From contig JAHIUA010000088.1 in NCBI GenBank assembly GCA_018817385.1, positions 1 through 64,000 on the forward strand: a stretch of 64,000 nt of DNA. Reading direction: 5' to 3'. The translations under genes and the position numbers were made by a program. Source of the DNA: Pseudomonadota bacterium (GTDB lineage: Bacteria; Desulfobacterota; Desulfobulbia; Desulfobulbales; Desulfocapsaceae). The notes below the pieces were generated by a model, which was given only the letters and a program-made list of their open reading frames with translations, did no database searches and had not been told where the DNA came from. Shown piece by piece: positions 14,286 through 31,310 of this stretch. Each line of letters opens with the position of its first letter. Within the stretch, counting starts at the first letter, position 1.

Positions 14286-14319
14286 GTGGTGCGAAGTGGT
14301 GCAAAGTGGAAAACGGTGG
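14286..14319 (+). promoter_or_regulatory. MraZ operator: four GTGG boxes at 10-base spacing
   Basis: GTGG occurs at 14286, 14296, 14306 and 14316, one helical turn apart, with the two inner boxes preceded by GAA and AAA. MraZ is known to bind three or four direct repeats of TGGG- or AAAGTGG-type boxes with about 10-base periodicity ahead of its own gene. The array sits between the predicted start of transcription and the mraZ ATG, as expected for autoregulation of the dcw cluster. The boundaries are clear; binding is inferred. Confidence 0.75.
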
Positions 14320-14325
14320 TGGCGG

Positions 14326-14796
14326 ATGGGTGAGGAGAAGACCATAAAAAGCAGATTTCGCAGTAAGTCCGAGCACAGCCTGGACTCCAAGGGACGTCTG
14401 AATTTTCCCAGCCGGTTCCGTGATGTCTTGGCTCAGTATGGCTCCGAGACCTTGATGGTCACGACCTGGGGGAAGCATCTGCGCGCTTATCCCGTTTCCG
14501 AATGGGAGAGTATTGAAGATAAGCTTCTGGATCAGGGGAAGGAGCAGCCGCGTTTGGCCAGTTTTATCCGTCTGGTCCTTTCCGGGGTGACAGAATGCAA
14601 TCTGGATAAACAGGGCCGCATTCTTCTCTCTGCTTCACTACGTTCTGAAACCCGGATCGGTAAAGATATCGTCCTTACCGGTATGCGAGACTGGGTGGAG
14701 ATTTGGGATAAGGAAGCCTGGCAGGCCGAAGTGCAGGCCACTCGTGATAATTTTGATAGTTTTGATGAGGGACTGTCTAAATTGGGAATCATCTGA
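14326..14796 (+). CDS. mraZ: transcriptional regulator MraZ
   Basis: About 156 residues from the ATG at 14326. An alternative GTG at 14296 lies inside the operator boxes and is rejected. The protein has the two SpoVT/AbrB-like MraZ repeats: EHSLDSKGRLNFPSRFRD in the first and ECNLDKQGRILLSASLRS in the second, each with the conserved D-x-x-GR-I/L-x-x-P/S pattern. MraZ forms ring-shaped oligomers and represses or activates the dcw operon. It is the first gene of the cluster, and its stop overlaps the rsmH start by one base (TGATG). Confidence 0.94.
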   Translation: MGEEKTIKSRFRSKSEHSLDSKGRLNFPSRFRDVLAQYGSETLMVTTWGKHLRAYPVSEWESIEDKLLDQGKEQPRLASFIRLVLSGVTECNLDKQGRILLSASLRSETRIGKDIVLTGMRDWVEIWDKEAWQAEVQATRDNFDSFDEGLSKLGII

Positions 14797-15695
14797 TGAG
14801 TGAACAGGGTGAGGCCGCAAAGATTCATCGTTCTGTGTTGCTTGATGAAACCCTTGGATTTCTTGCTCCCCGCAGTGGCGGTATTTATGTGGATGGAACT
14901 CTGGGTCTGGGAGGGCACAGCGAGGCGATCCTGCAGAAAAGTGCACCGGAAGGCAGGGTTGTAGCCTTTGAATGGGATGAAGCGGCCATTGAAAAGAGCC
15001 GCAAGAGATTACAGCCTTTTGGCGAGCGGCTGACCATTATCAGAAGAAATTTTTCCGAGATTGCCGAGGGTTTGGTGGAGGCGGGTATTTCTCAGGTTGA
15101 CGGAATTCTCATCGACATCGGTCTTTCATCCCTGCAGCTTGATATTGGTGAGCGGGGTTTTAGCTTTCAGCGTGACGAGCCCCTGGATATGAGGATGGAT
15201 ACCAGGCGGAAGGTTACAGCGGCGTCGATTCTGGCTCACTGCTCTGAGAGTGAACTGGCCGATATTTTTTATTATTACGGAGAAGAAAAGCAGGCACGAA
15301 GAATCGCAGATTTTGTTGTTCATGAGCGGGTTCAGAAACCTCTTGTTTCGTCAAAGCAGCTGGCTGATCTGGTGACGCGGGCTGTGCCCAGGCGATTCCA
15401 TCCTAAAAAAATCCATGTGGCAACACTGGTATTTCAGGCCCTGCGCATTGCCGTGAATACGGAACTGGAGAATCTGGCGGAAATCCTGACTCATGCTGTG
15501 CCATTTCTGGCTCCGGGAGCTAGATTTTGCGTCATATCCTTTCACTCCCTGGAAGACAGGATGGTGAAAAGAAAATTTCGTGATAATGAGGCTGTCAGGG
15601 TGCTGACCAAGAAGCCGATCGGCCCTGGCCCAGAAGAACGGGAGAACAATCCTAGATCACGGAGTGCTCGTTTAAGAGTTGTTGAAAAAATATAG
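14796..15695 (+). CDS. rsmH: 16S rRNA (cytosine(1402)-N4)-methyltransferase RsmH
   Basis: The 299-residue protein matches RsmH (formerly MraW) throughout: IHRSVLLDETLGFL, the SAM-binding YVDGTLGLGGHSEAIL, VDGILIDIGLSSLQLD, RGFSFQRDEPLDMRMD, RIADFVV, HPKKIHVATLVFQALRIAVN, FCVISFHSLEDRMVKRKF and the RSRSARLRVVEK end. It N4-methylates C1402 in the 30S P site. It is translationally coupled to mraZ. The gap to ftsL (about 110 bases) contains no gene. Confidence 0.97.
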   Translation: MSEQGEAAKIHRSVLLDETLGFLAPRSGGIYVDGTLGLGGHSEAILQKSAPEGRVVAFEWDEAAIEKSRKRLQPFGERLTIIRRNFSEIAEGLVEAGISQVDGILIDIGLSSLQLDIGERGFSFQRDEPLDMRMDTRRKVTAASILAHCSESELADIFYYYGEEKQARRIADFVVHERVQKPLVSSKQLADLVTRAVPRRFHPKKIHVATLVFQALRIAVNTELENLAEILTHAVPFLAPGARFCVISFHSLEDRMVKRKFRDNEAVRVLTKKPIGPGPEERENNPRSRSARLRVVEKI

Positions 15696-15806: not shown

Positions 15807-16172
15807 ATGATTATTAATCCTTCCGCCCATACCATGATTCCCCGTGGCAACGTTATGCGAAATCGTCCTTATGCACGTCGTCAGTTATCTATAAGGATGC
15901 CGTATGGGAGACAGATGTGGTATGGAATAACAAAGGTTTTACTTTTTTCTTCTGTCCTGATTTTTGTCTGCTCTTTTTGGCTCACGAGTGCAGTTGAGCG
16001 GGTAAATGGAGAGATTGAAAAAGCGACAGCGATTCATCATGAACTGGTCAATACCAATATCTTGCTTCGAGCCCAAAAGGCCAGGTTGTTTTCTCCGAAT
16101 GAGGTAGGAAAGCTGGCAGGAGAGAATTTGGCTCTTTATTTGCCGAAATCCAGTCAATATCACAAGTTTTAA
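15807..16172 (+). CDS. ftsL: cell division protein FtsL (probable)
   Basis: A 121-residue bitopic protein starting at an ATG behind AGAGGTGATGCC. It has a basic cytoplasmic N-terminus (residues 1-45), one membrane segment (about 46-63, ITKVLLFSSVLIFVCSFWL) and a short heptad-patterned extracytoplasmic coil (VERVNGEIEKATAIHHEL, then a NEVGKLAGENLALYLP tail). This layout, its size and its position between rsmH and the FtsI homologue identify it as FtsL even though FtsL sequences are poorly conserved. FtsL normally forms the FtsQLB complex and activates the septal synthase FtsWI. Its presence makes the altered FtsI and missing ftsW in this cluster more notable. Confidence 0.85.
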   Translation: MIINPSAHTMIPRGNVMRNRPYARRQLSIRMPYGRQMWYGITKVLLFSSVLIFVCSFWLTSAVERVNGEIEKATAIHHELVNTNILLRAQKARLFSPNEVGKLAGENLALYLPKSSQYHKF

Positions 16173-16257
16173 AGGGCCTGCTTGAACTGCATCTCAAGGG
16201 TAGCAATGGTGACCAGAAAAGAGGCAATTGGGGAGGGGGTTCACTTACAGGGAAAAG

Positions 16258-18171
16258 ATGGTCAGAAGATCCCGCCTCAGGACGGAAAATAACAGAAGAC
16301 GGCTGCTGAGGGCTCTGCTGGTCCTTCTGGTGCTAGGGGGGGTTGTTGCAGGAATTGCTTTTGTCTTTCGGCAGCAGTTGCGGATCTTGTCCGCGGTCTG
16401 GGAGGAGACCTTTCCTGCAAATGAGTTCCTCGTAGAAGAGAGTGTTCGGGGGACGATTTACGACAGAAACTTCAAAGAGCTGGCTGAGACCCTTGAGCGG
16501 GTTTCTCTTTATGCCAGACCGCGAGAAGTTGAAAACCTGGAGGGGACTGCCGGGCAGCTCTCCGGGGTTCTGGGGATATCGGAACCGGAACTTAAACAAC
16601 GCCTGGGAAGAGATTCTCATCTTGTCTGGCTTCGCCGTGATATTGGCCAGGGAGAGGAAGAGGAAATCCACCGGCTGGGGTTACCTGGGATATATCTGCA
16701 CCGGGAGCTGGCGAGAAAATATCCAGAGCAGGCGATGGGAGCACATCTGGTCGGATATGCCGAAAACGATCTGGGGCTTGCTGGAATTGAGCACTATTAT
16801 GATCATCTCCTCAGCCATGATCATGTTCGGCAGGAAGCTATACCCAACGTCGATCTCAAAGGGGAGGAAGAGACCAGCGGTTACAGTCATGATTTGGTTT
16901 TGACCGTTGACATGAAAATCCAGGCCATCCTCGACAAATATGTGGCTGACCTGGGAGAGAATCTGGGTCGTGTTCAGCTTGGTTCGCTGTTGCTGGAAAC
17001 AGGTGAAGGGAAAATTATTGCTGGGGTCAATTTTCCTTCCTATAATCCAAACACCATCTGGCAGTATGAAAATGAGGTGCTGGAGAATATTCTTCTTACC
17101 CCCCTGGTGATTCCGAAAGAGATCAGGCAATTTTTTCTGGAGGCATCTCTCCTCCAGAGAGGGTGGGAGCAGGGGACCCAGATTTACCCCTGGAGTTTGG
17201 TTGCCGGAAAAACAGATTTTGCTGGGCAGCTTCGCCTCTGGGATCGTTTGCAGTTGACCACAGAGCTGAATGTGGATCTCTCGGGAGGGAAAAAAGGGAG
17301 TTCCTCTATTCCGGAGTTTATTGACTGTGGTCCTGTTGCAGATCTGGGTACGGTTCCCAAAATAGCTCCTCCTCTGAAAGTGGTTCTAGGCTTTACCCAT
17401 CTCCTCAATGGTGGCAAGAAAATACAGCCCCATTTTCTTGACCGGGTGCTGGAAAGACCAAGCCAGAAAGAGTATGTCTATGATGTCTTTCGAGGAAAAA
17501 CACGAGGCACTAACGTCTTACCCTCTCTGGTCTCTGCAGAGTTAAGAACTTTACTGCGAGCCCAGGGAACACCAGGTATTCTTGGTTCTGTCGCCATTTC
17601 TGGAGAGACGCTTTCCAGAATAGCATTACCGACCGGATACGAGTATGTGCGTGATCGGATGTCTCTGGTAGTTATTCCAGCTGAAAAACCGGAAATTATT
17701 TTGCTCCTGGTTTCGCGACAAAAGGACCTTGGGCCAAGGAAGGTTGACGATTCGAATCCGGATTTTCTTTGTAAAACCATTGATACCATTCTCCCTTCAA
17801 TGGTGGCCTTGCAGCAAGTCAGTTATGGCCTTGCTGGTCTGGTTGAAGCAGCAGAGAAAAAAAATGAGAATTTCCAGAGCGAGGGGATGGACGAGAGGAA
17901 TGTCTCGAAAAACCTGGCTGGAATGTTGAAAGAGCAGACTCGAATCATGCCGGACTTGACCGGACTCAGCTTGAGAAGGGCACTCCGTCTTTTGCAGGGA
18001 ACGGAGGTGGAGGTGCATGTCGAGGGCTCGGGACGTATTCGTTCCCAGAGCCCGGAGGCTGGCGGGGCCCTGAAAACAGGTGGCCAATGTCGGCTGATCC
18101 TGAAAAAAGATACAGCACCCAAAGAAACCGTGGAGATGTCGAATCTGGAAAATGATAGTAAGCAGGAATGA
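16258..18171 (+). CDS. ftsI: FtsI/PBP3 homologue lacking all transpeptidase motifs, with PASTA domain
   Basis: About 637 residues from the ATG at 16258 (preceded by AGGGAAAAG; a TTG at 16228 is less likely). A membrane anchor (about residues 14-37) is followed by a clear FtsI-type pedestal: RGTIYDRN, LARKYPEQAMGAHLVGYAEN, GLAGIEHYYD and LTVDMKIQAILD, then LLLETGEGKIIAGVNFPSYN leading into the transpeptidase fold. There the catalytic region is altered: where FtsI has EPGSTxK this protein has IPKEIRQ (the serine is Glu288 and the lysine Gln291), the SxN segment is shortened and absent, and KTGT is replaced by SGET (about 448-451). An SGGK at about 342 is in the wrong place. A C-terminal PASTA domain (about 561-617) follows. 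The frame is intact, so this looks like a maintained pseudoenzyme. Confidence 0.9.
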   Translation: MVRRSRLRTENNRRRLLRALLVLLVLGGVVAGIAFVFRQQLRILSAVWEETFPANEFLVEESVRGTIYDRNFKELAETLERVSLYARPREVENLEGTAGQLSGVLGISEPELKQRLGRDSHLVWLRRDIGQGEEEEIHRLGLPGIYLHRELARKYPEQAMGAHLVGYAENDLGLAGIEHYYDHLLSHDHVRQEAIPNVDLKGEEETSGYSHDLVLTVDMKIQAILDKYVADLGENLGRVQLGSLLLETGEGKIIAGVNFPSYNPNTIWQYENEVLENILLTPLVIPKEIRQFFLEASLLQRGWEQGTQIYPWSLVAGKTDFAGQLRLWDRLQLTTELNVDLSGGKKGSSSIPEFIDCGPVADLGTVPKIAPPLKVVLGFTHLLNGGKKIQPHFLDRVLERPSQKEYVYDVFRGKTRGTNVLPSLVSAELRTLLRAQGTPGILGSVAISGETLSRIALPTGYEYVRDRMSLVVIPAEKPEIILLLVSRQKDLGPRKVDDSNPDFLCKTIDTILPSMVALQQVSYGLAGLVEAAEKKNENFQSEGMDERNVSKNLAGMLKEQTRIMPDLTGLSLRRALRLLQGTEVEVHVEGSGRIRSQSPEAGGALKTGGQCRLILKKDTAPKETVEMSNLENDSKQE

Positions 18172-18216
18172 TGGTGTCGTAAAAAAAACCTTTATCTGCT
18201 TCTTTGTTGTAAAATT

Positions 18217-18258
18217 AAAAATCAATCCAACGTATTCTCGTTTGCTGGATTGATTTTT
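18217..18258 (+). terminator. intrinsic terminator-like hairpin between ftsI-like gene and murE-murF
   Basis: AAAAATCAATCCA (18217-18229) pairs perfectly with TGGATTGATTTTT (18246-18258) across a 16-base loop, ending in a T-run. The stem is AT-rich, so it may be a weak terminator or attenuator. If active it would separate mraZ-rsmH-ftsL-ftsI from the mur genes. No strong promoter was identified between it and 18439. Confidence 0.6.
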
Positions 18259-18438
18259 AGTTTTGCACCGCAAGGCGGGCCTGAAAACGGACCACATGGG
18301 AAGCTTATTGAAGTCTACGCCTATATCCTGGGCAGAGATCTGATTTTTTTTAGTTTGTAAGATGTTGTCAAGAATAACAAGATGGGAACACGCTTTTTTG
18401 CTGCATCCCTGATGGGTGCAAGAGTGAAGGAATCAGAA

Positions 18439-21400
18439 ATGTCCAAACCTTTGGAGGGCAATGAGCAATGCCAAATCGTCGGAGACTGGTCCTGTACTGG
18501 CCCCGGCACTGCTGTGTCGTCCTCTTCCGGAATTTCTCTGGCATCTCTTCTTGCATCTCTTAACAGCCACTATGTTCTCAGCGGCAATCCCACAACGTGT
18601 CTCATCAATCAGATAACTACTGATTCCCGTAAGGCGACAGCCGGATCTTTTTTTATTGCCCTTGTCGGTAGTCAGTATGATGGTCATATTTTTATCGATC
18701 AGGCAGTGAAGAACAACTGTTCCGTACTTCTTGTTGAAAAGGGAAGGCTGGATCCGAATTCCTATGGCAACGGTGGAGTCTGTGTCCTTGAAGTCGAGGA
18801 TACGAGAACGACCTATGCCGAAATTGCGGAAATTCTTTTTGCACATCCGGCCCGGCAAATGGTCATGGTTGCCATTACCGGAACCAACGGCAAGACCACT
18901 GTCAGTTATCTTCTCGAGTCGGTCCTCCAGGAGGCAGGAAGACACCCGGGAGTGTTGGGAACGATCAATTATCGCTATCTTTCTCAGCAGGGGCAGCTGA
19001 TTGCCTGGCCTTCATCGTTTACCACCCCCGAACCCCTCCTTCTTCAGGAAACATTGCGTCGTATGGCAGATAATGGAGTGGATACCGTGATCATGGAGGT
19101 CTCTTCGCATGGTCTGGAGCAGAAGCGAATCGGAACACTCTCCTTTGATGTAGCAGCCTTTACCAACCTCTCACGTGATCATCTGGACTACCACCAGGAC
19201 ATGGGTTCCTACTTTGCTGCCAAAACCCTTCTCTTTAGCAAACATCTCCATGAGGGGGGCTGGGCGATTATTACCATGGCTGACACAGGGGAGCAGGAAT
19301 ACCCCTGGAGCGAGAGGCTGCGAGGCATATGTAGCCAACGTGATCTTTCGCTTCTTTGTTGTGGTTCAACAGGCCCAGACATCTTTCCTCTTGAGGTGGC
19401 AGGGGATCTGGGTGGAACCAGGATCCGTCTGCAGACACCGAAAGGAGAGTGGGATCTCTCTTCACCATTGGTCGGAGATTTTAATGTAATGAATCTTCAG
19501 ACCACCTTTGGCATGGCCTTGGCCCTGGGCATAGATCCCTTGGGCATCTGTACTGCACTTTGCAGAGCAGTCGGGGCTCCCGGGCGCCTGCAACGGTTGC
19601 CGGTCTGCAGCCGGAGGCACTCCTTCCTGCCGTCAGTCTTTATTGATTATGCTCATACCCCGGATGCCCTGGAGCAGGTCCTGAAAACAGTAACGGCCCT
19701 TCCCCATCGTAGCCTTTATTGTGTGTTTGGCTGCGGCGGAGACAGGGATGCGGGAAAGCGGCCATTGATGGGTGAAATTGCCGGGAAATACAGTGATGTT
19801 GCCATTGTCACCGATGACAATCCGCGTAGTGAAAATGCCTCGCTTATTCGTGCGGCAATAGTTGGAGGGGTGCGAAAAGCCGGTCTTGGTGAAGAGGACG
19901 TCTCCTGGCTGCAGAAGAAGGAAGCAGGAGAACAAGGTTTTGTGGTTATTGCAGATCGTGCGCAGGCCATTCAGGCGACAATCGCAACGGCAGGGAAAGG
20001 GGATATTGTTCTCATTGCCGGAAAGGGGCACGAGCGCTACCAGTTGACTGGCGAAGGGAAAAGATTTTTCGATGACTCCCTTGAGTCTGCAGAGGCCTTG
20101 AGTCGCTGGCGACTGGGGGACCTGGTCCAGGCCTGTGCAGGTTCTTTCCTTAAGGGACGGGCAGAAGGACAGGGGCTTGCTTCCCTGAGTACGGATTCGC
20201 GCAAGATTGACAAGGGCGATATCTTTGTGGCGTTGCGGGGAGAGCGATTTGATGGCCATGCCTTTGTCGATCAGGTCACGGCTGCAGGTGCAGGCTGTCT
20301 GGTCCTTGAACAGGAACCGGAAAAACCCCTTTTACTTCCCGTTCTTGTTGTAAAAAATACGGAACGGGCCCTGGGGGATCTGGCGGCATACAGACGGAGT
20401 TGTATGAAGGAGATCAGCCAGCCTCTGGTGGCAGCTATTACTGGAAGCAGTGGCAAGACCACGGTCAAGGAGATGTGTGGTGCCATTTTTGCCCAGCAGT
20501 GGCCTGATGAGGTGGATGGAGTTCAGGGAAGGGTTTTGAAGACAGAAGGGAATTTTAATAATCTGATTGGCCTGCCCCTTTCACTGCTGCCAATTATCCC
20601 CAGACATCGAGCAGTTATTCTCGAAATGGGAATGAATGTTCCTGGCGAGATTGCCAGGCTTACAGAGATAGCAGATCCTGATATTGCCTGTATTGTCAAC
20701 GTCCACGGCGCTCATCTTCAGGGCCTGGGAGATATTGAAGGCGTAGCCAGGGCCAAAGGAGAGCTTTTTCTAGGTTGCGGTAAGGATACTGTCTTGGTAG
20801 TAAACAGTGACGATGCACGAGTGGTCGCTGCTGCTCGAGGGTGTGAGCAGAATAAAATATTTTACGGGATGGATGCCCAGCCGCACTCTTTTCCCCTCCA
20901 TATTTGGTCTTCCGGGCGGCAAACCGGCGATGGGGAAGAGATATGTTTTACCCTCCATATTCTGGAGGAAGAAGCCCAGGTTGTCCTCCAGGTGCCGGGC
21001 GTCCATAACATAGCCAATGCTCTTGCCGCAGCAGCCATTGCCCATGCGGCAGGAATTGACCTTCCCTTAATCAGCACAGGCCTTTCTACCTTTGTTCCGG
21101 CGGATCGTCGGATGCAGATTCTAGACGGTCCAGCCGGAAGTCGAGTTATAAACGATACCTACAATGCCAACCCTGCTTCCATGCGAGCCGGCATCAACAC
21201 CCTCTGTCAACTTGGATCGGGAAAACATATCGCTATCCTTGGAGACATGCTGGAGCTGGGAGAAGGGAGTGAGGCCCTCCATAAAGAAATTGGAGCCCAT
21301 GCTGTTGCTGCAGGAGTCGACTTTCTTGGCCTGGTGGGTCAGTTTGCGCCAGTGGTAGCGGTCGCTGCCCAGGAGCAGGGCATGGATACTGCCCGTATGA

Positions 21401-21543
21401 GAATCTTTTCCGATAAGAAAGATTGTCTTTCCTGGATAGAGGAACTGATTACTTTAGGAATTGTCCATTCCGGGACTTATATCCTGGTCAAAGGGTCGCG
21501 TGGTATGCGGCTGGAAACTCTTGTTGAACAACTAACAGTCTAA
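18439..21543 (+). CDS. murEF: fused MurE-MurF peptidoglycan ligase (UDP-MurNAc-tripeptide synthetase / D-Ala-D-Ala ligase)
   Basis: About 1034 residues from the ATG at 18439, chosen because AAGGA lies seven bases upstream; a start at 18382 lacks such a site. The N-terminal half (to about 550) is MurE: DSRKATAGSFFIALVG, the ATP loop GTNGKTT (148-154), EVSSHGLEQKRIG, FTNLSRDHLDYH and DNPR (460-463), the motif that marks meso-diaminopimelate addition. The second half (about 557-1034) is MurF: STDSRKIDKGDIFVALRG, GSSGKTT (669 onward), EMGMNVPGEI and YNANPASM. It would add the third residue and then D-Ala-D-Ala. No stop or restart separates the halves, so this is a true fusion. Such fusions are known but uncommon. 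Confidence 0.95.
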   Translation: MSKPLEGNEQCQIVGDWSCTGPGTAVSSSSGISLASLLASLNSHYVLSGNPTTCLINQITTDSRKATAGSFFIALVGSQYDGHIFIDQAVKNNCSVLLVEKGRLDPNSYGNGGVCVLEVEDTRTTYAEIAEILFAHPARQMVMVAITGTNGKTTVSYLLESVLQEAGRHPGVLGTINYRYLSQQGQLIAWPSSFTTPEPLLLQETLRRMADNGVDTVIMEVSSHGLEQKRIGTLSFDVAAFTNLSRDHLDYHQDMGSYFAAKTLLFSKHLHEGGWAIITMADTGEQEYPWSERLRGICSQRDLSLLCCGSTGPDIFPLEVAGDLGGTRIRLQTPKGEWDLSSPLVGDFNVMNLQTTFGMALALGIDPLGICTALCRAVGAPGRLQRLPVCSRRHSFLPSVFIDYAHTPDALEQVLKTVTALPHRSLYCVFGCGGDRDAGKRPLMGEIAGKYSDVAIVTDDNPRSENASLIRAAIVGGVRKAGLGEEDVSWLQKKEAGEQGFVVIADRAQAIQATIATAGKGDIVLIAGKGHERYQLTGEGKRFFDDSLESAEALSRWRLGDLVQACAGSFLKGRAEGQGLASLSTDSRKIDKGDIFVALRGERFDGHAFVDQVTAAGAGCLVLEQEPEKPLLLPVLVVKNTERALGDLAAYRRSCMKEISQPLVAAITGSSGKTTVKEMCGAIFAQQWPDEVDGVQGRVLKTEGNFNNLIGLPLSLLPIIPRHRAVILEMGMNVPGEIARLTEIADPDIACIVNVHGAHLQGLGDIEGVARAKGELFLGCGKDTVLVVNSDDARVVAAARGCEQNKIFYGMDAQPHSFPLHIWSSGRQTGDGEEICFTLHILEEEAQVVLQVPGVHNIANALAAAAIAHAAGIDLPLISTGLSTFVPADRRMQILDGPAGSRVINDTYNANPASMRAGINTLCQLGSGKHIAILGDMLELGEGSEALHKEIGAHAVAAGVDFLGLVGQFAPVVAVAAQEQGMDTARMRIFSDKKDCLSWIEELITLGIVHSGTYILVKGSRGMRLETLVEQLTV

Positions 21544-21550
21544 ATAATTT

Positions 21551-22630
21551 ATGCTTTATCACCTTCTCTATCCCCTCCACACAAGTATCAGTGGGTTTAA
21601 TGTCTTTCGCTATATCACTGTTCGTTCCATCGGTGGTGCGATGACTGCCTTTCTCATTATGCTTGTGCTCGGCCCCTGGTTTATTCGCAAGTTAAAACGA
21701 TATCAGGTGGGACAGGTGATACGCGATGACGGTCCGGAGACTCACCTCGCCAAAAAGGGAGTGCCCACCATGGGTGGTGTTCTCATTCTCTTTGCCATCA
21801 CCTCAGCCACCTTGCTTTGGGCCAGACTTGACAATCCCCTGGTCTGGCTTCTCCTCTTTGTGATCCTCTTCTTTGGACTCATCGGCAGTATCGACGACTA
21901 TCGAAAGATCAAAAAGAAGTCCAGTGACGGTCTCAGCGCCAAGGGCAAACTCCTGATGCAGATATTCGGGGCCTCGGTGGTGGGCATTTTTCTCCTCCTC
22001 CATCCGAGTTATGACGGACTTCTCAGTGTTCCCTTCCTGAAAAATATCCATCCGGATCTTTCCTGGTTCTATGTGGTCTTTGCCATTCTGGTCATTGTCG
22101 GTTCATCCAATGCGGTGAACCTGACAGACGGTCTCGATGGTCTGGCTGCAGGCCCCACGGTCATTTCTGCCGCAGTCTATCTGATCTTTTCCTACCTTGC
22201 CGGGCACGCCGTGCTTGCCGACTATCTTCAACTCCCTTATGTGCAGGGGGCAGGAGAGCTTGCTGTCTTTTGCGGGGCTATGGTCGGCGCCTGTCTCGGG
22301 TTTCTCTGGTTTAATGCCTATCCGGCCCAGATCTTTATGGGAGATGTGGGGTCCCTGGCTCTGGGTGGGGCCCTGGGTGGAGTCGCCATTATCATTAAAC
22401 AGGAGATTCTGCTGGCCATAGTCGGGGGAATATTTGTCATGGAGGCCCTTTCAGTTATCCTCCAGGTAGGCTACTTTAAACTCAGTCATGGCAAGCGGAT
22501 CTTTCTCATGGCCCCCTTTCACCATCATTTTGAGAAAAAAGGATGGCATGAGCCCAAAGTCGTCATTCGTTTCTGGATAGTTTCTGTTCTTCTCGGCCTC
22601 TTTGCCATTGCCACTTTGAAACTGCGCTGA
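21551..22630 (+). CDS. mraY: phospho-N-acetylmuramoyl-pentapeptide-transferase MraY
   Basis: The 359-residue integral membrane enzyme transfers phospho-MurNAc-pentapeptide to undecaprenyl phosphate to give lipid I. About ten hydrophobic segments are visible. Signatures include KKGVPTMGG, the metal-binding DD in [46 protein letters not shown] and [14 protein letters not shown]. The length is standard. It begins eight bases after the murE-murF stop and its own stop overlaps the murD start (TGATG). Confidence 0.97.
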
Positions 22631-24015
22631 TGAATATTGCCAACAGGATAGGGCCCGGGCAGCGGGCAGTGGTCATGGGACTTGGTGTCTCCGGTCGGGC
22701 AGCGCTTCGCTATCTGTTGGCTTCAGGTGTCCAGGTTTTTGTCTCGGACAGTCGTCAGTTTACAGAACTTCCCGTGTCCGATCGAGAGTACTTGCTGGAA
22801 AACAGGGTAGCCTTTGAGGGTGGCGGGCACAGCAGGGAATTTCTCCTCAAGGGTGACTTTATTGTCCTCAGTCCTGGTATTCCCACGGATCTCCCTCTGC
22901 TCATGGAGATGAGGGCCCAGGATATTCCAATCCTTGGTGAACTGGCTCTGGCCGCACCACAGATCACTGAGCAGGTGGTTGCGGTGACTGGGACAAACGG
23001 CAAGACAACGGTCACTGCCCTGATCGGAGAGCTGTTGCAGGCATCCGGGAAAAAGGTCTTTGTGGGTGGAAATATCGGCACACCTCTTCTTGACTATCTC
23101 TGCCAGGACGAACGGGTTGATGTATTGGTCTTGGAACTCTCCAGTTTCCAACTGGAGTCGGCCGGAGACTTTCGCCCGGATATAGGGATCTTACTCAACA
23201 TTACCCCAGACCATCTCAATCGCCACGGCAGTATGCTTGCCTATGCTGCGGCCAAGATGAAACTCTTTGCCCACCAGGGAGCGGAGGACAAGGCAATTCT
23301 CTGCAGCGATGATCCCCTGTGCCGGGAGCATATCCCTTTGCTCACCAGGCAAAAAGTCTTCTCTTTTGGTACCGGCCAAGAAGGTGAGGCCAGAGGTGCA
23401 GGAAGTGAACTGACGATTACTCTGGAGGGGAGAACAGAGTCCTACTCGCTTGCCGGAACGCAGCTTGCCTCTCACACGGGTCTGTTAAACAGCGGAGCTG
23501 CCGTTCTTGCTGCCCTGTTCCTCGGCTGCAGGCATGAGGAGATCCAGCAAACACTCAATTGTTTTGCTCCGGCGGCCCATCGTTTGCAACTGGTTAGCAG
23601 CAGGGCAGGGGTTGATTATTACGATGATTCCAAGGCCACGAATACCGGAGCGGTGCTCAGTGCTTTGGCCTCTTTTCCAGGAAAGGTGATTCTCATTGCC
23701 GGGGGAAGGGGGAAAGGAGAAGATTACCGGGTGCTCAGAGAGGCGGTCAGAGAAAAGGTCAAGGGACTCGTTCTCATGGGTGAGGCGGCCGACTCCCTTG
23801 CTGATGCCTTGGATGATGTGATCTTGAGCCAAAGGGCGGTTTCCATGGCAGATGCGGTGGCCAGGGCCACACAACTTGCTGAAGCAGGGGATGTGGTTCT
23901 CCTCTCCCCAGCATGTGCGAGCTTTGATATGTTCAACAGTTATGGTCATCGGGGTGAAGTTTTCTCTCAAGCTGTGCTGGATCTGCAAGGGCAGAGAGGG
24001 GAGGAAAGAGCCTGA
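22630..24015 (+). CDS. murD: UDP-N-acetylmuramoyl-L-alanine--D-glutamate ligase MurD
   Basis: The 461-residue ligase has the N-terminal Rossmann domain (VVMGLGVSGRAALRYLL), the ATP loop VTGTNGKTTVTAL, GGNIGTPLL, LELSSFQLE, NITPDHLNRHGSM, the DDSKATNTGAVL stretch and the C-terminal VVLLSPACASFDMFNSY. It adds D-glutamate to UDP-MurNAc-L-Ala. It overlaps mraY at its start and murG at its end by single bases. In most proteobacterial dcw clusters ftsW lies between murD and murG; here there is no room for it. Confidence 0.97.
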   Translation: MNIANRIGPGQRAVVMGLGVSGRAALRYLLASGVQVFVSDSRQFTELPVSDREYLLENRVAFEGGGHSREFLLKGDFIVLSPGIPTDLPLLMEMRAQDIPILGELALAAPQITEQVVAVTGTNGKTTVTALIGELLQASGKKVFVGGNIGTPLLDYLCQDERVDVLVLELSSFQLESAGDFRPDIGILLNITPDHLNRHGSMLAYAAAKMKLFAHQGAEDKAILCSDDPLCREHIPLLTRQKVFSFGTGQEGEARGAGSELTITLEGRTESYSLAGTQLASHTGLLNSGAAVLAALFLGCRHEEIQQTLNCFAPAAHRLQLVSSRAGVDYYDDSKATNTGAVLSALASFPGKVILIAGGRGKGEDYRVLREAVREKVKGLVLMGEAADSLADALDDVILSQRAVSMADAVARATQLAEAGDVVLLSPACASFDMFNSYGHRGEVFSQAVLDLQGQRGEERA

Positions 24016-25145
24016 TGAATACCCCAGTCCGACTCATGCTCACCGGTGGTGGAACAGGTGGACACCTCTTTCCGGCCATAGCCACGGCTGAGGCCCTTTG
24101 TCGTCGTCTGCCGGGGAGCCAAGTCCTTTTTGTGGGGACCAAGAGGAAGATGGATCGGGACAGTCTTGCCGAGTATGGGTATGCCACCTGCTCCATCCAT
24201 AGTCAGGGGCTGAAGGGGAAGGATTTCCTCTCTCTGGTCATAGGCCTGGCAGTCCTCCCCCTTTCCTGTGTGGAGGCAATGTATCATATCCTGCGTTTCC
24301 GGCCGCATCTGGTACTCGGGGTAGGCGGCTATGTCACCGGTCCGGTGATTGCAGCGGCAAGACTTCTTGGCAGACCAACACTTATCCATGAACAGAATTC
24401 GATCCCTGGACTGGCTAACAGGAAGCTGGGGCCATTGGCGGCCAAAATTTGTCTTTCTCTGCCGGGCAGTGAAAAGTGGTTTCCCAGCCAAAAAACAGTG
24501 CTTACCGGCAATCCTGTTCGCCATGCCATCCTGACCCTGGCTGGCAAAGAGAAGAAAAAAAAAGAGGGGCCGCTCACTCTCCTGGTCCTGGGGGGGAGTC
24601 TTGGCGCCCACCGGGTGAATGTTTTGGTAACCGAGGCCTTTGCTCTTGGTCTCCCGGGTTTGCAGGGAGTCAGGGTTATCCATCAGACTGGAGCGGATGA
24701 CGCTGATATGGTCACAGAGAGGTATCGCCAGAGCAAAACAGAAGCTACCGTTTCTCCGTTTTTTCGGGATATGGCGGGCGTTTATGAGCAGGCCGATCTC
24801 CTGCTTTCACGTGCCGGGGCCACCACCCTGGCTGAGCTTGCGGTTCTCGGAAAACCTGCTCTGCTTATTCCTTACCCCTACGCTGCGGATCGGCACCAGG
24901 AAAAAAATGCAGAGTTCTATGTGCAGGGGGGCGGGTGTGTCATGTTTGCGGAAAAAGAGTTGAGTGCAGATCTGCTGGGCGAGAATCTTGTCCGTTTACT
25001 CGCAGATCGGCACGCTCTTGAGGCCATGGGAACTGCCATGCGCAGCAGGGCTTTTCCCGAGGCCACGGAACATATTGTTGATGTGTGTATGGATTTACTG
25101 GGACACAAGCCCCAAGGCGTTCGATCCGCCTCTGGAAAAGAGTAA
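24015..25145 (+). CDS. murG: UDP-N-acetylglucosamine--N-acetylmuramyl-(pentapeptide) transferase MurG
   Basis: The 376-residue peripheral membrane GT28 glycosyltransferase makes lipid II. Signatures are LTGGGTGGHLFPAIA, GYATCSIHSQGLKGK, GVGGYVTGPVIAAA, HEQNSIPGLANR, LGGSLGAHRVN, HQTGADDADMV and LSRAGATTLAELAVLGKPALLIPYP with the following DRHQEKNAEF. The start codon overlaps the murD stop. murC follows after two bases. Confidence 0.97.
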   Translation: MNTPVRLMLTGGGTGGHLFPAIATAEALCRRLPGSQVLFVGTKRKMDRDSLAEYGYATCSIHSQGLKGKDFLSLVIGLAVLPLSCVEAMYHILRFRPHLVLGVGGYVTGPVIAAARLLGRPTLIHEQNSIPGLANRKLGPLAAKICLSLPGSEKWFPSQKTVLTGNPVRHAILTLAGKEKKKKEGPLTLLVLGGSLGAHRVNVLVTEAFALGLPGLQGVRVIHQTGADDADMVTERYRQSKTEATVSPFFRDMAGVYEQADLLLSRAGATTLAELAVLGKPALLIPYPYAADRHQEKNAEFYVQGGGCVMFAEKELSADLLGENLVRLLADRHALEAMGTAMRSRAFPEATEHIVDVCMDLLGHKPQGVRSASGKE

Positions 25146-25147
25146 TT

Positions 25148-26533
25148 ATGTATAATAAGACCAAAAAGATTCACTTCGTCGGTATTGGCGGCATTGGCAT
25201 GAGCGGCATTGCCGAACTTCTCCTCAATTTGGGCTACCAGGTATCCGGCTCTGATCTCAATGATTCTGCTATTACGCGCAATCTCCAGGCTCTGGGTGGA
25301 AACGTGCACCAAGGCCATGACGAAGGATGGGTGCAGGGGGTGGATGTGGTGGTGACCTCCTCGGCTATATCTCCCAATAATCCAGAGGTGGTGGCGGCGC
25401 TTGCGCTAGGAATTCCGGTGATTCAACGTGCCGAAATGCTCGCTGAAATCATGCGTCTGAAAAAATACGGTATTGCCATTGCCGGCAGTCACGGCAAGAC
25501 CTCAACGACCTCCATGGTTGCCTGGATGATGGCCTGCGCCGGTCTCGATCCCACCATTGTCGTGGGTGGTAAGGTGGACAGCCTGGGGGGCAATGCCAAA
25601 CTCGGTCAGGGAGATTTCCTGGTGGCGGAAGCGGACGAGAGTGACGGATCTTTTCTTAAGCTTTCTCCGGTGCTGGAAGTGGTCACTAATATCGATCTGG
25701 AACATATGGATCATTATGATGACCTTGATCATATCAAGGCGACATTCCTCGAGTTCATCGACCGGATTCCCTTTTATGGGGCGGTGATTCTCTGTCTCGA
25801 CGATGTCAATGTCGCTGACATCCTGCCGGAGATCAGAAAACGAAAGATCACCTATGGTCTGAATCCCCAGGCGGATCTGTACGCTGAACAGATTGAAGTC
25901 GGTGGGGGCAGGGCTCAGTTTACGGTACTGCACAGGGGTGAGGTTCTGGGTGAGATTGATCTGGCCCTTGCCGGAAGACATAATATCTATAATTCACTGG
26001 CTGTGATCTGTGTCGGTCTGGAGTTGGAAATCCCGTTTAGGATTATCCGTGAGGCCCTGGCAAGCTTTCAAGGGGTGCAGCGGCGTATGCAGTTTAAAGG
26101 CCAGGGCCGAGGGATTACTGTCCTCGATGATTATGGTCATCACCCCACGGAAATCAGGGCCACTTTGGCAGCGATTAAGGAGGCCTGGCCTGAGAAGCGC
26201 CTGGTGGTACTCTTTCAACCCCATCGTTATAGCAGGACCCTGGCCTTGCTCAAGGAATTTCAGACCTCTTTTCATCAGGCGGATCTCTTGGTCATGACAG
26301 AAATCTATGCGGCCAGTGAGCAACCCCGGGCAGAGATTTCAGGCGAGATCCTTCTGGAAAAGGTGAGGAAACATGGACAGCGACAGGCCAGATTTATTGC
26401 AGGGGTGGATGTTTTGGCCAAAGAGTTGCTTCCGGATTTGCTTGAGGGGGACCTGGTGTTGACTCTGGGGGCCGGTAATATCGTTCTTGCCGGAGAAGAA
26501 CTGGTACGGCTGTTGGAGGAGAAAAAGGGCTAA
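25148..26533 (+). CDS. murC: UDP-N-acetylmuramate--L-alanine ligase MurC
   Basis: The 461-residue enzyme starts at the ATG at 25148 (MYNKTKKIHFVGIGGIGMSG); an in-frame GTG at 25085 inside murG is not credible. It adds the first residue of the stem peptide. Signatures include IHFVGIGGIGMSGIAEL, SSAISPNNPEV, AIAGSHGKTSTTSM, EADESDGSFL, NIDLEHMDHY and the DDYGHHPTEI motif of the third domain. GGAAAAGAG precedes the start. murB follows after five bases. Confidence 0.97.
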   Translation: MYNKTKKIHFVGIGGIGMSGIAELLLNLGYQVSGSDLNDSAITRNLQALGGNVHQGHDEGWVQGVDVVVTSSAISPNNPEVVAALALGIPVIQRAEMLAEIMRLKKYGIAIAGSHGKTSTTSMVAWMMACAGLDPTIVVGGKVDSLGGNAKLGQGDFLVAEADESDGSFLKLSPVLEVVTNIDLEHMDHYDDLDHIKATFLEFIDRIPFYGAVILCLDDVNVADILPEIRKRKITYGLNPQADLYAEQIEVGGGRAQFTVLHRGEVLGEIDLALAGRHNIYNSLAVICVGLELEIPFRIIREALASFQGVQRRMQFKGQGRGITVLDDYGHHPTEIRATLAAIKEAWPEKRLVVLFQPHRYSRTLALLKEFQTSFHQADLLVMTEIYAASEQPRAEISGEILLEKVRKHGQRQARFIAGVDVLAKELLPDLLEGDLVLTLGAGNIVLAGEELVRLLEEKKG

Positions 26534-26538
26534 GGGAG

Positions 26539-27465
26539 ATGGAACAGCAGCTCAAAAACAGACTCAGTAGTCTAGCCGTAAATCTGATTCAGTGGGATTG
26601 TTCTCTTGCTCCTTATACCTCCTTTGGTATCGGAGGGGCGGCATCCGCTCTGGTTACAGTGGAGAGTGTCGCCGAGCTGGAGAGGCTGCTGCAATTTTTT
26701 GTCGAAAATAATTTAAATTGGCGTCTCATCGGGAGAGGGACCAATCTTCTTGTGGCGGACCATGGTTTCGCAGGAGTTATCCTCATTCTTGGCAAGGGGC
26801 TTTCCCGGATAGTCCTCCAGAAAGAGGAACAATCCGGACAGGTTGTTGTTCAGGTCGGTGCCGGTTGCAGTCTTGCCCGTCTTCTGGCCTGGTGTGTGGA
26901 ACAAGGTCTTTCCGGTTTGGAATTCGTCAGCGGTATCCCTGGGAGCGTTGGCGGGGCAGTTGTCATGAATGCCGGGGCCTGGGGAGGAGAGATTGCTGAT
27001 GTGATTGCTGCTTTGACTGTTGTCAGCCCCTTAACAGGCATGGAAATTCTGGAACGTGAGGAATTGGACTTTAGTTACAGGTTATGGCAGAATCAAGGTC
27101 ACAATGGGGCTGCACGGATGGTGGTGGCGGCAGATCTCCAGTTGCGACGAGGGATAAAAGAAGAAATTGCTGGCCGCTGTCGAAGGTATCTGCAGCAGCG
27201 GCTGGAGAAACAGCCCAAAGGGCTGAAAAATGCAGGCTCGTTTTTCAAGAATCCGCCGGGTGATTCGGCAGGGCGACTTATTGAGGCCTCAGGCCTCAAA
27301 GGGAAAAGCTGTGGTGGGGCTATGATCTCTCCGGTCCATGCCAATTTTCTCGTGAATAGTGGACAGGCCACGGCAAAAGATGTTCTCCTCCTGATGGAGA
27401 TTGTTCGTGAAAAGGTGGAGAAAGAAAGTGGTGTTAGATTGGAAACTGAGGTACATTTTCTATAA
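26539..27465 (+). CDS. murB: UDP-N-acetylenolpyruvoylglucosamine reductase MurB
   Basis: The 308-residue FAD enzyme reduces UDP-GlcNAc-enolpyruvate with NADPH to UDP-MurNAc. It has YTSFGIGGAASALV, RLIGRGTNLLVADHGFAGVI, GAGCSLARLLAWC, FVSGIPGSVGGAVVMNAGA, KNAGSFFKNPPGDSAGRLIE and the final E-x-x-V-x-x-ES-G-V-x-LE. The short-loop form matches type IIa MurB. A ddl gene often lies next to murB; none is present here, so D-Ala-D-Ala ligase must be encoded elsewhere. Confidence 0.96.
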   Translation: MEQQLKNRLSSLAVNLIQWDCSLAPYTSFGIGGAASALVTVESVAELERLLQFFVENNLNWRLIGRGTNLLVADHGFAGVILILGKGLSRIVLQKEEQSGQVVVQVGAGCSLARLLAWCVEQGLSGLEFVSGIPGSVGGAVVMNAGAWGGEIADVIAALTVVSPLTGMEILEREELDFSYRLWQNQGHNGAARMVVAADLQLRRGIKEEIAGRCRRYLQQRLEKQPKGLKNAGSFFKNPPGDSAGRLIEASGLKGKSCGGAMISPVHANFLVNSGQATAKDVLLLMEIVREKVEKESGVRLETEVHFL

Positions 27466-27471: not shown

Positions 27472-28470
27472 ATGATGAAGTTCCTGGGAAAAATTCGATT
27501 ATTGCTGGCGGGTAAAAGAAAAGGGAAGGGAACGGTTTCCGCCTTTACAGAAAAAATGAACCAGCAGCCCCGCTACCAGGCAAGCCAGGTTGGAATGGAG
27601 GCAGGAAAAAAGACTTTTCGCGAGAGGTTGGCGGGTCTTGTCAGAGAGAGGCCGCGGCATGCCCCAGTCAGGTCTGCTCGGGGGGGAGAGAGAGGAGGAG
27701 GGGGACGTTTGCTTTTCTTTTCTCTGGTGTTGACAGTCATCTTGCTGGGAGGCGTTTTGCTTCTGACCGGTCCCTCGCGGGGATTTCTCGAAAATTACCG
27801 GTATTTTCAGATTCGTAACATCGAGATCTCCGGTTGCCGGGTGACTACCCCTACTATGTTGAGAAAGTTTGCAGGGATCAATTATCAGATGAATATGCTG
27901 ACCTTGGACCCGGAAGCAATTCAACAACTGTTAGAGACTCATCCCTGGGTTTCTCTGGCGAAAATTAGACGGATCTGGCCGAACGAACTGGTTGTTTCTA
28001 TCAATGAGTATCGTCCTGAGGCCTTGATCGTCCAGGGAAAAGAAAAGGGTTTGTATTATCTCGATCAATCAGGAAAGATATTTGCTCCCGTTGTCCAGGG
28101 AATGGCCCTTGACTTTCCGGTTGTGACCGGGCTTGATAGTGTAGAGGAAAGTGAAGAGAAGGAACAGGTGCTGATTCAGGCAGTGTCCTTTTTACGACTG
28201 GCACAGATTAACAACCCGAATCTACCGGCCCAGAATGTTTCGGAGATTCATTTAACCGGTGAGGGAGAGATGATCCTCTACCTGGTGAAACATCCTTTTC
28301 CCATTTATTTTGGTAAAGGGGATATAAAACGAAAATATTACCAGTTGTGTAAGGTGTTGGAAGTATTGTATCAAAAGAAGAAAGACGGAGCGTTGATTGA
28401 GAAAGTGGCGTTTATCCGAATGGATTACCTGGAAAATAAGGTGTTGGTCGCACAAAGCAGTGCAGGTTGA
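27472..28470 (+). CDS. ftsQ: cell division protein FtsQ
   Basis: The 332-residue bitopic protein has a long basic cytoplasmic tail (about 1-80, rich in Arg/Lys and with a GGERGGGG stretch), one membrane span (about 82-100, LFFSLVLTVILLGGVLLL), a POTRA domain beginning YFQIRNIEISGCRVTT and then the FtsQ beta domain (HPWVSLAKIRRIWPNELVVSI, EYRPEALI, YYLDQSGKIF). FtsQ links FtsA/FtsZ-level assembly to FtsL and FtsB. The cytoplasmic tail is longer than in E. coli. It lies seven bases after murB and about 170 bases before ftsA. Confidence 0.93.
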   Translation: MMKFLGKIRLLLAGKRKGKGTVSAFTEKMNQQPRYQASQVGMEAGKKTFRERLAGLVRERPRHAPVRSARGGERGGGGRLLFFSLVLTVILLGGVLLLTGPSRGFLENYRYFQIRNIEISGCRVTTPTMLRKFAGINYQMNMLTLDPEAIQQLLETHPWVSLAKIRRIWPNELVVSINEYRPEALIVQGKEKGLYYLDQSGKIFAPVVQGMALDFPVVTGLDSVEESEEKEQVLIQAVSFLRLAQINNPNLPAQNVSEIHLTGEGEMILYLVKHPFPIYFGKGDIKRKYYQLCKVLEVLYQKKKDGALIEKVAFIRMDYLENKVLVAQSSAG

Positions 28471-28639: not shown

Positions 28640-29899
28640 ATGGATGAGATAGAGGTCAGACAGGTAGGTGAGGTGGGAGAGCAGAGGCAACACAGAGGAC
28701 CGGGGGATCTGGTGGTTGGGCTCGATATCGGAACCACTAAGATCTGTTGTGTGGTTGGTGAGGTCTTTGATGATGCGGTGGATATTGTTGGATTTGGAAC
28801 CGCCCCTTCCATGGGTTTGAAAAAGGGGGTGGTGGTGAATATTGAATCCACTGTCAAGTCCATCAAACAAGCGGTGGCGCAGGCGGAGGAATCTGCAGGG
28901 TGTGAACTGAGTACTGTGTATGTTGGTATTGCCGGGAGTCATGTCAAGGGCTTCAATAGTCCTGGGATTCTGGCCATCAATGGTCGGGAGATCAGGGAAA
29001 ATGATGTTGCCGATGTGATTACTGCTGCCAGGACTGTGAAGATTTCTGAAAACCAGCAGATCATTCACGTTCTTCCCCAGGAGTATATGGTTGATGATCA
29101 TACCGGTATTCAGAATCCTCTGGGAATGACTGGAGTGCGTCTGGTGACCAATGTCCACATTGTCACAGCAGATATGGGTGCCGTCCATAACCTCTACACC
29201 TGCTGTAATAAGGCAGGTCTTGAAGTGGCGGATATGGTCCTTGAGTCCATTGCTTCAGCCCATGCAACGCTCAGTGCCGATGAAATGGAGTTGGGGGTAG
29301 CCCTTCTTGATATTGGTGGCGGAACCACAGATCTTGCGGTGTTTTGTGATGGAACCATACGCCACACCTGTGAAATCGGTCTGGGTGGACATAATCTGAC
29401 AAATGACCTTTCTGTTGGCCTGCGTACGCCTCTTCAGGATGCCGAACGCCTCAAAGAAGACTACGGCAGTGCCATTTCCTCGTTGATTAAACCCAATCAT
29501 GTGGTGGATGTCCCCACTGTTGGTGATCGGGAGCCGCGCAAGGTTACCCAGAAGGTTCTGGTGGATATTATTCAGGCAAGGATGGTAGAAATTCTGGAGA
29601 TGGTGAATCAGGATCTCATTGGTTGCGGTTTGAAAAACAGGATCCACGGCGGTATTGTCATCACCGGCGGTACTGCTTTGTTGGCCAATCTTGTGGATCT
29701 TGCAGAGCAGATTTTTGACCTGCCGGTGCGTATCGGCTATCCAGTGCAGATCGGCGGCAAGGTGGAGCAGATCTATACACCGCGTTGTACCACTGGTGTC
29801 GGTCTGGTGATGTACGGGCGTCAGCATCAGGTGGATAATCGTTACAGCGATAGTTCCATGGTCGGTAGGATGAAGGACTGGCTGCGAAAAATCATGTGA
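28640..29899 (+). CDS. ftsA: cell division protein FtsA
   Basis: The 419-residue actin-like ATPase has VVGLDIGTTKICCVVGE (phosphate 1), GIAGSHVKGFNSPG and PQEYMVDD (1C domain), GVALLDIGGGTTDLAVF (phosphate 2), IGLGGHNLTNDLSVGL, GIVITGGTALLANL (adenosine) and a C-terminal amphipathic tail (VGRMKDWLRKIM) that anchors FtsZ to the membrane. The start is ambiguous between ATGs at 28636 (other frame) and 28640; the frame fixes 28640. The upstream 170 bases carry no gene. Confidence 0.96.
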   Translation: MDEIEVRQVGEVGEQRQHRGPGDLVVGLDIGTTKICCVVGEVFDDAVDIVGFGTAPSMGLKKGVVVNIESTVKSIKQAVAQAEESAGCELSTVYVGIAGSHVKGFNSPGILAINGREIRENDVADVITAARTVKISENQQIIHVLPQEYMVDDHTGIQNPLGMTGVRLVTNVHIVTADMGAVHNLYTCCNKAGLEVADMVLESIASAHATLSADEMELGVALLDIGGGTTDLAVFCDGTIRHTCEIGLGGHNLTNDLSVGLRTPLQDAERLKEDYGSAISSLIKPNHVVDVPTVGDREPRKVTQKVLVDIIQARMVEILEMVNQDLIGCGLKNRIHGGIVITGGTALLANLVDLAEQIFDLPVRIGYPVQIGGKVEQIYTPRCTTGVGLVMYGRQHQVDNRYSDSSMVGRMKDWLRKIM

Positions 29900-30080
29900 G
29901 GGGTCGGTCAGCTCAAAGTTTTCCTGAGAGGGAGCAGAGGGAGAGGCGCAGAGTGATTTTTTTGGAGTCAAATGAGAAAAATGTTTCAGTGAACAGTGGC
30001 AAATGCTATAATTTATCTACTGATAATTATGGATATGTCACGCCAAATAACGTGTGGATTTCTTGAACAGGGGTGAGAGT

Positions 30081-31310
30081 ATGCCGTTTAGAATGGCGGA
30101 AACAGAAGGGGTTGCGGTCGTCAAGGTTATAGGCGTCGGTGGCGGAGGTGGCAATGCCATTAATACCATGGTTGATGACCGTCTGCAGGGGGTAGAATTT
30201 ATAACTGCCAATACGGATAGACAGGCCTTGAATCAGTCCCGAGCCGATATCTGTCTTCAGATCGGTCCCAATATCACCAAAGGTCTCGGTGCTGGAGCCG
30301 ACCCGGAGACGGGGGAGCTTGCTGCGCAAGAGTCCCTTGATGAAATCAAAGAGAGCCTCAAGGGCGCTGACATGGTTTTTGTCGCGGCCGGTCTCGGCGG
30401 TGGTACTGGTACCGGAGCAGCCCCGATAGTAGCCAAGATCAGCAAGGAACTGGGAGCGCTTACCGTGGCCGTGGTGACCAAACCCTTTCATTTTGAAGGT
30501 AAAGCTCGCATGCGAAATGCTGAGCGGGGCTGGGATCAGTTGCGTAAGTATGCAGATACCATTATCACCGTTCCCAATGATCGTCTCCTCTCCCTGATGC
30601 AGAAGAATTCAAAACTTTCCGATATGTTGAGCATGGCGGACAAGGTTCTCCTTCAGGCTGTGAAGGGGATCACTGATCTGATCAATGTGCCTGGAATGAT
30701 TAATGCCGATTTTGCCGACTTGCGCACGGTGATGCGAGAGGTCGGACCGGCTATCATGGGCTCTGGGTCTGCTGTTGGCGAAAGCAGGGCCACGGAGGCA
30801 GCTAAACGGGCTATCGATAACCAGCTTTTGGAAGATGTCGGGATTGATGGGGCGCGAGGTTTGCTCATTAACATCTCGGCTTCGAAAGAGAGCTTCACCA
30901 TGGCCGAGTTTATGGAAGTCTCAGCCCTCATCCATGCCAAGGTTGACGATGAGGCGAAGGTGGTCATTGGCGCTCTCTATAATGATGCCCTGGGTGATGA
31001 ACTTCATGTCACCGTTATTGCCACAGGTGTGGGAGAAGTGGTTCCGACAAAAGAAAAGCTTGTTCAGGTGGAGTTGTCAGCGAAGAGTAAAGGATCAATT
31101 CCCGAGGAGCAGGCAGAGCGGCCCGTGCATACATCCCCGGCTCCGGCTAATCCACAGGCAAGAAAATCTATATTTTCATCTTCCAATTTCAATGGCTTTG
31201 AAAATCACGGGATTTCATCAGGGGAAAAATCTAGAAATAAGCAGGAGAGTCAAATTTGGAATGAGGAATATATGGAAACCCCGACTTATCTGAGAAAGAA
31301 GGCGAACTGA
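30081..31310 (+). CDS. ftsZ: cell division GTPase FtsZ
   Basis: About 409 residues from the ATG at 30081, preceded by AGGGGTGAGAGT; an in-frame GTG at 30054 is rejected. It is the tubulin-like ring protein. Visible are [15 protein letters not shown], the GTP signature [18 protein letters not shown], the T7 loop [11 protein letters not shown] and a variable linker ending in [11 protein letters not shown], the conserved C-terminal peptide that binds FtsA and related partners. It is the last gene of the dcw cluster. All functional motifs look intact, in contrast to the FtsI homologue. Confidence 0.97.

Follow-up and report, generated by a model that had tools for sequence, protein, structure and literature searches.

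FtsW and FtsI are regarded as universally essential for building septal peptidoglycan (PMC10693644). The same paper describes C. difficile as an organism without a canonical FtsW/FtsI pair, which divides by means of a class A PBP. In E. coli, PBP1b needs both FtsW and PBP3 for its septal localisation and forms a complex with both, and PBP3 contacts its partners mainly via FtsW (PMC6325244). Rhizobiales without a Rod complex drive their polar growth with a class A PBP (PMC8546619).

Nearer to the bacteria studied here, ftsW, ftsN and zipA are reported missing in two genomes of Ca. Electrothrix and two of Desulfobulbus, all four Desulfobulbaceae (PMC7873302). That paper counts FtsI in the divisome of cable bacteria and, with E. 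coli as its model, has septal synthesis done by FtsI activity. The dcw cluster of Thermodesulfobacteria has also lost ftsW (PMC8871954).

The locus described here can be set beside each of these systems. Its ftsI product is like FtsI/PBP3 in the position of the gene in the dcw cluster, the anchor, the pedestal and the overall predicted fold (Z about 32). It differs in that it has no Ser, Lys, SxN or KTG, and in that no FtsW partner was found in the genome. As in C. difficile (PMC10693644, as described there), there is no dedicated vegetative septal SEDS/class B pair, and RodA-PBP2 and a class A PBP remain. C. difficile however retains the dcw-encoded and sporulation-specific SpoVE and SpoVD, whereas here ftsW is gone, the ftsI product is dead and the organism is Gram-negative.

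With the Rhizobiales the shared trait would be an essential class A PBP after the loss of a SEDS/class B machine, but there it concerns elongation and here division (PMC8546619). The cases in PMC7873302 and PMC8871954 come from the same wider lineage and miss the same gene; their accounts of division do not state that FtsI is inactive. The absence of FtsW from some of these bacteria has thus already been published. A search of open-licence PMC full texts, these taxa included, found no report of FtsI inactivation or of a pseudoenzyme FtsI.

The dcw cluster and its FtsI homologue

The window is the whole stretch of DNA that was analysed, 64,000 nucleotides long. It is contig C41 of a genome of 5.38 Mb, which is rated 100% complete and 2.67% contaminated. 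The nearest genus-named relatives of the source are Desulfocapsa (Desulfocapsaceae, Desulfobulbales, Thermodesulfobacteriota; family, order and phylum below refer to these). Bacteria of this lineage are not known to form endospores. The dcw cluster spans 14296-31310 and consists of the following features.

14296..14796, + strand: mraZ (PF02381)
14796..15695, + strand: rsmH (mraW; PF01795)
15807..16172, + strand: ftsL-like gene (weak: TIGR02209 at 19.3 bits, below the cut-off of 42.45; position between rsmH and ftsI)
16258..18171, + strand: catalytically dead FtsI, 637 aa, with anchor, PBP_dimer pedestal, degenerate transpeptidase-fold domain and PASTA
18382..21543, + strand: murE-murF fusion, 1053 aa (two stretches each of Mur_ligase_M and Mur_ligase_C)
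21551..22630, + strand: mraY
22630..24015, + strand: murD
24013..24017, no strand: murD/murG junction without ftsW (the E. coli ftsW location; one base common to both genes)
24015..25145, + strand: murG
25085..26533, + strand: murC (Mur ligase domains; named from position and length)
26539..27465, + strand: murB (named from position; used as a reference, it matched frames adjoining murC in other clusters)
27472..28470, + strand: ftsQ (PF08478, PF03799)
28640..29899, + strand: ftsA (PF14450)
30054..31310, + strand: ftsZ (PF00091, PF12327)

The position of ftsI, between rsmH/ftsL and murE, is the one expected of FtsI. Fused MurE-MurF frames are also seen in the f12 genomes G209 and G103 and in families f69, f79, f91 and f96 (982-1001 aa); no fusion was found in G154 (f5) or G259 (f31).

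The FtsI homologue is encoded by a frame that is open throughout its 637 codons. Its parts are as follows.

16312..16368, + strand: likely transmembrane anchor, residues 19-37 (hydropathy maximum; model helix 13-36)
17038..17052, + strand: SYNPN, residues 261-265, end of the strand into the former active site (FtsI alignment)
17119..17130, + strand: former SxxK site, E288-I-R-Q291 (FtsI alignments; model helix 287-306)
17602..17613, + strand: former KTG strand, SGET, residues 449-452 (alignment; model)
17944..18096, + strand: PASTA domain, residues 563-613 (PF03793, E 2.3e-07)

An earlier note, made from the sequence alone, had called this protein a catalytically dead FtsI homologue in the dcw cluster, with Ser and Lys replaced by Glu288 and Gln291, SxN absent and KTGT turned into SGET. 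Alignments, homologues and a structural model all confirm this. Solved FtsI/PBP3 proteins can be aligned over residues 62-304 (best E 5.8e-21), which places E288 and Q291 at the Ser and Lys positions of EPGSxxK. The same placement results from an alignment to 21 comparison FtsI, 20 from phylum genomes plus that of E. coli. At the motif positions of this alignment, the window FtsI has no SxxK, no SxN and no KTG.

The N-terminal anchor and the PBP_dimer pedestal (PF03717, E 7.3e-11) are present. A Pfam scan of the window FtsI finds PBP_dimer and PASTA and no match to Transpeptidase, and the protein is not listed by the genome-wide PF00905 search. Equally dead homologues can match Pfam Transpeptidase, with 101.9 bits in f31 and 50 bits in f5. 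The criterion used here is therefore the state of the motifs, and not the failure to match.

The earlier note also pointed to the PASTA domain. The domain is there, but it is not special to dead FtsI, since the active FtsI of many phylum relatives match the PASTA end of the profile.

An AlphaFold2 model built from 53 sequences has a mean pLDDT of 83.4 and a pTM of 0.72. It resembles SpoVD (7rcz_B; Z 35.5, rmsd 3.9, 414 aligned), the FtsI chain in the FtsWIQBL complex (8bh1_B; Z 32.8, rmsd 5.1, 408 aligned) and numerous PBP3 structures (Z about 32). The model has a helix at 287-306, which means that E288 and Q291 are on its first turn. This is where SxxK is expected on such a helix. SGET lies on the strand 445-457.

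As modelled, the transpeptidase fold is retained despite the missing Pfam Transpeptidase match. A pseudoenzyme is a protein that has kept its fold and lost its catalytic residues, and by the predicted structure this is what the window protein is.

The SGGK near residue 342, which the earlier note had named as a possible displaced active site, was rejected as one. The pLDDT is about 55 there, and relatives have DFSDD, DFSTQ and the like, so the string is not conserved.

Occurrence in the family, order and phylum

The earlier note had left it conditional whether the protein is typical of its lineage, and this turns out to be so. The gene is found in 88 of the 93 family genomes, in 53 of the 54 good-quality ones and in 17 of 18 genera. 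None of the 128 order homologues that were read has the Ser/Lys pair. These comprise 88 from the family, including the window's own, and 40 from eight other families, and thus represent 9 of the 15 families sampled. One family homologue (L091, genome G027) is split between two frames, and its second part was read.

The motif alignment holds 130 rows (the window, 87 family, 40 order and two of family f31), next to the 21 comparison FtsI. The motif columns of the latter read S, K, S, N, K, T and G in all 21 cases. In the 130 rows, which come from FtsW-less lineages and whose alignment is approximate within degenerate regions, Ser stands at the Ser column once (L034), Lys at the Lys column ten times, and both never. 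SxxK-like strings occur elsewhere in six rows and KTG-like strings in seven (13 of 130 rows), and no row has both together.

The dead FtsI gene is under purifying selection. Compared to the close relatives L196, L197 and L210, the Nei-Gojobori dN/dS is 0.194, 0.152 and 0.145 over the whole gene, and 0.142, 0.150 and 0.110 over the transpeptidase-like domain. The impression of the earlier note, that such a long and uninterrupted frame looked selectively kept, was a sound one.

The source genome contains one SEDS match, out of seven candidates scored. It reaches 406 bits as RodA (cut-off 336.7), against 297 as FtsW (cut-off 337.5). This rodA comes after mreB, mreC, mreD and PBP2, and so belongs to an mreBCD-PBP2-RodA cluster, where the mreD match of 22.8 bits is just below its cut-off of 24. 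An FtsW relocated elsewhere in the source genome was considered and rejected, as the sole SEDS match is RodA. A comparison of gene order puts the E. coli ftsW exactly between murD and murG. Here murD and murG overlap by one base, so there is no ftsW at its usual place.

The same is seen more widely. A SEDS match was found in 83 of the 93 family genomes, and 82 of them carry exactly one. The other is G006 (8% contamination), with two matches and a PBP2-like gene adjoining each. In the order, a SEDS match is present in 200 of 212 genomes, and is a single one in 192. Eight genomes have more than one, among them G103, where one gene was read in two pieces. The 12 order genomes without a SEDS match include two (G129, G204) that are at least 90% complete. 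Gene by gene annotation of ten order dcw clusters, including that of the window, found ftsW in none.

Going by gene content, FtsW is lost along with FtsI catalysis, and the dedicated septal synthase appears no longer to exist. Since FtsI is dead and FtsW is missing, both catalytic halves of this synthase would be gone, which strengthens a non-catalytic reading of FtsI. The earlier note had not noticed the missing FtsW.

The 237 phylum genomes mostly have two SEDS matches outside the order, and about 56 have one (counted by eye). From outside the order 35 genomes were picked so as to be complete and widely spread; 21 of them have a single SEDS match and 14 have two. The lone SEDS adjoins a PBP2-like frame in 15 of the 21.

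SxxK is present in none of the 14 FtsW-less genomes whose ftsI slot was seen; this leaves out G307, where rsmH was not found and the slot was thus not located. GSxxK is present in the FtsI of 19 out of 19 FtsW-bearing genomes, 18 of which have FtsW visible in the cluster. The nineteenth, G249, has a dcw contig that ends early and is counted by its two SEDS matches.

In G260, G261, G264, G310 and G411 the lone SEDS is the dcw-cluster FtsW, and their FtsI has SxxK, so these genomes fit the pattern. In G398 there is a lone SEDS match, and the FtsI has SxxK (GSxxK). This genome was left out of the 19 since its SEDS is on another contig, and its FtsI contig (11.5 kb) stops before the place of ftsW. 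G437 of family f68 has two SEDS matches and is a possible exception beside the FtsW-less G337 and G364 of the same family.

A tree for the FtsW state was made from seven dcw proteins of 44 genomes, using a quick mixture-model method on rows of which many are unlike in composition; the state of G249 was set by hand. On the starred branches, the FtsW state changes at least twice (mean over shuffles 14.8; none of 500 shuffles was as low). The mixture-model tree has one large FtsW-less clade with the Desulfobulbales and f42/f78, and another with f38 and f68, while f31 is unplaced. FastTree groups f42/f78 with f38/f68 (support 0.732) and places f31 next to FtsW-bearing rows. Because the two trees disagree on f42/f78 and f31, the claim is limited to at least two origins of the FtsW-less state, and that many are indicated.

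A pairs test for correlated loss finds 2 independent pairs and a p of 0.5, and with just 2 pairs it cannot reach significance. Within the phylum, FtsW loss and FtsI inactivation co-occur as judged from the sequences, on few independent events.

The proteins in the ftsI slot of FtsW-less genomes range from 643 aa (f31) down to 248-329 aa (f38, f68). In f38 and f68 the slot protein consists of a hydrophobic anchor and a PASTA-like end. This means that the pedestal and the transpeptidase-like domain are not needed everywhere.

Families f42 and f43, both FtsW-less, have slot frames of 340 aa (L357:2152-3171, genome G270) and 440 aa (L356:2238-3557, genome G271) in which FtsI matches are barely recognisable. 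Also, in f38 and f68 the ftsW slot, between murD and murG, is taken by a hydrophobic-looking protein of about 261-264 aa that matches no Pfam family (L333:3110-3910, L334:3088-3897 and L335:2695-3501, all on the - strand). That this might be a degenerate FtsW is not supported, as hhalign gives the similarity a probability of 0.4%.

The septal synthase and the role of FtsI

The main reading is that FtsI is dead and selected, that FtsW is lost, and that the septum is made by another synthase. Taken jointly, this is given a probability of roughly 0.85. The earlier note had offered, conditionally, a reading in which FtsI is non-catalytic and another enzyme does the cross-linking. This reading is now supported by the occurrence of the dead protein throughout the lineage, by the failure to find any other FtsI in the genome, and by purifying selection.

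In this reading FtsI would have lost its transpeptidase motifs and kept the anchor, pedestal, transpeptidase-like domain and PASTA. Given that the lineage lost FtsW as well as the FtsI motifs, the dedicated septal synthase would be gone and some other enzyme must build the septum. Most likely, the dead FtsI would then be a non-catalytic part of the divisome that links regulators of the FtsL/FtsQ type with a different peptidoglycan synthase. As such it may act as a scaffold or activator. The septum would be polymerised and cross-linked by the remaining enzymes, either class A PBPs or RodA-PBP2.

If so, a lineage sampled throughout its order, with cultured isolates, and other families of the phylum would be natural cases in which FtsI's structural part is uncoupled from its catalytic one. 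Experiments could then ask directly which enzymes are able to make a septum, and which tasks FtsI has apart from cross-linking. One prediction is that beta-lactams acting on FtsI should not cause filamentation by that route in these bacteria. Descriptions of division in Desulfobulbales that take FtsI to be active would have to be revised.

Four proteins of the genome match PF00905, namely PBP2 and three class A PBPs, and GSxxK and KTG strings occur in each. No second, active FtsI was found among them, and PBP2 is the only other class B PBP found. The class A set comprises a PBP1A-family protein (622 aa), a PBP1B with a UB2H domain (1021-aa frame) and a PBP1A-like protein (1127-aa frame). A divisome with a class A PBP instead of FtsW/FtsI would be marked, among other things, by the lack of a canonical pair and by a motif-intact class A PBP, and both are found here.

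At least one class A-type transglycosylase is present in 80 of the 80 genomes searched, of which 51 were taken as FtsW-less (one SEDS, or the split SEDS in G103) and 29 are others. As FtsW-bearing genomes have it too, this does not discriminate between class A PBPs and RodA-PBP2.

The choice of septal synthase is much less certain than the joint claim. By analogy the bifunctional class A PBPs would be favoured, with the UB2H-bearing PBP1B type first, at roughly even odds. The analogy is with C. difficile, which is described as dividing with such an enzyme, and with the reported complexes of E. coli PBP1b with FtsW and PBP3. FtsI would then be retained as a docking part. What counts against such docking is that the described contacts of E. 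coli PBP3 to its partners are mainly via FtsW, which is absent here.

A broader picture can be put forward tentatively, at somewhat less than even odds. Several lineages may have dropped the dedicated septal synthase, with a structural FtsI connecting the Z ring to a synthase shared by growth and division, either RodA-PBP2 or a class A PBP. In f38 and f68 this FtsI would be reduced to an anchor and PASTA-like end, with the hydrophobic protein in the ftsW slot.

It is possible, if doubtful, that the sole SEDS/class B pair, RodA-PBP2, makes both the side wall and the septum, and that the dead FtsI is an adaptor to the Z ring. No SEDS polymerase other than RodA was found in the genome, PBP2 has GSxxK and KTG, and the near universal single SEDS of the family (82 of 83, with both copies in G006 next to a PBP2-like gene) fits. 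However, the C. difficile authors assign elongation to RodA-PBP2 and division to the class A PBP, while their account leaves it possible that both act in both (PMC10693644).

A role of the dead FtsI chiefly as a peptidoglycan sensor, whose PASTA domain would read the nascent septal wall and gate other parts of the divisome without docking a synthase, is rather unlikely. The PASTA end does have 6 of the 18 columns that are invariant over 53 sequences (P565, S571, L572, R573, G590, G592), and the reduced f38 and f68 proteins retain just the anchor and the PASTA-like end. Within Desulfocapsa, however, PASTA is less constrained than the pedestal and the transpeptidase-like domain. PASTA also occurs in active FtsI of the phylum, and the slot proteins of four FtsW-less genomes (f42, f43, f69, f96) have no PASTA match.

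A functionless relic, decaying but persisting through its place in a tight operon, would account for the stepwise decrease in length between lineages, from 643 aa in f31 to 248 aa in f38. Purifying selection, the confidently predicted fold and retention across the order make this very improbable, and none of the family matches listed has internal stops (the G027 homologue is split between two frames).

That the true FtsW and FtsI were missed on absent contigs, or by sequencing or binning error, has a negligible chance: many of the genomes are metagenome bins, the gene is absent in 5 of 93 and a SEDS match in 10 of 93 family genomes, and G129 and G204 have no SEDS match at all, but the one- or two-contig genomes G022, G026, G035-G037 and G209 have exactly one SEDS and a dead FtsI, 87 further family homologues are without the Ser/Lys pair, and the dead FtsI is also encoded by two isolates, Desulfoprunum benzoelyticum DSM 28570 and Desulfofustis glycolicus DSM 9705.

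As regards the class A PBPs, which are the favoured candidates for the septum, the third such protein of the source genome, the 1127-aa frame, is encoded at L097:2638-6021 (+) on contig C54, and the Pfam transpeptidase profile is matched by it only in part. Many order genomes likewise have long frames with a transglycosylase, of about 1079-1168 aa.
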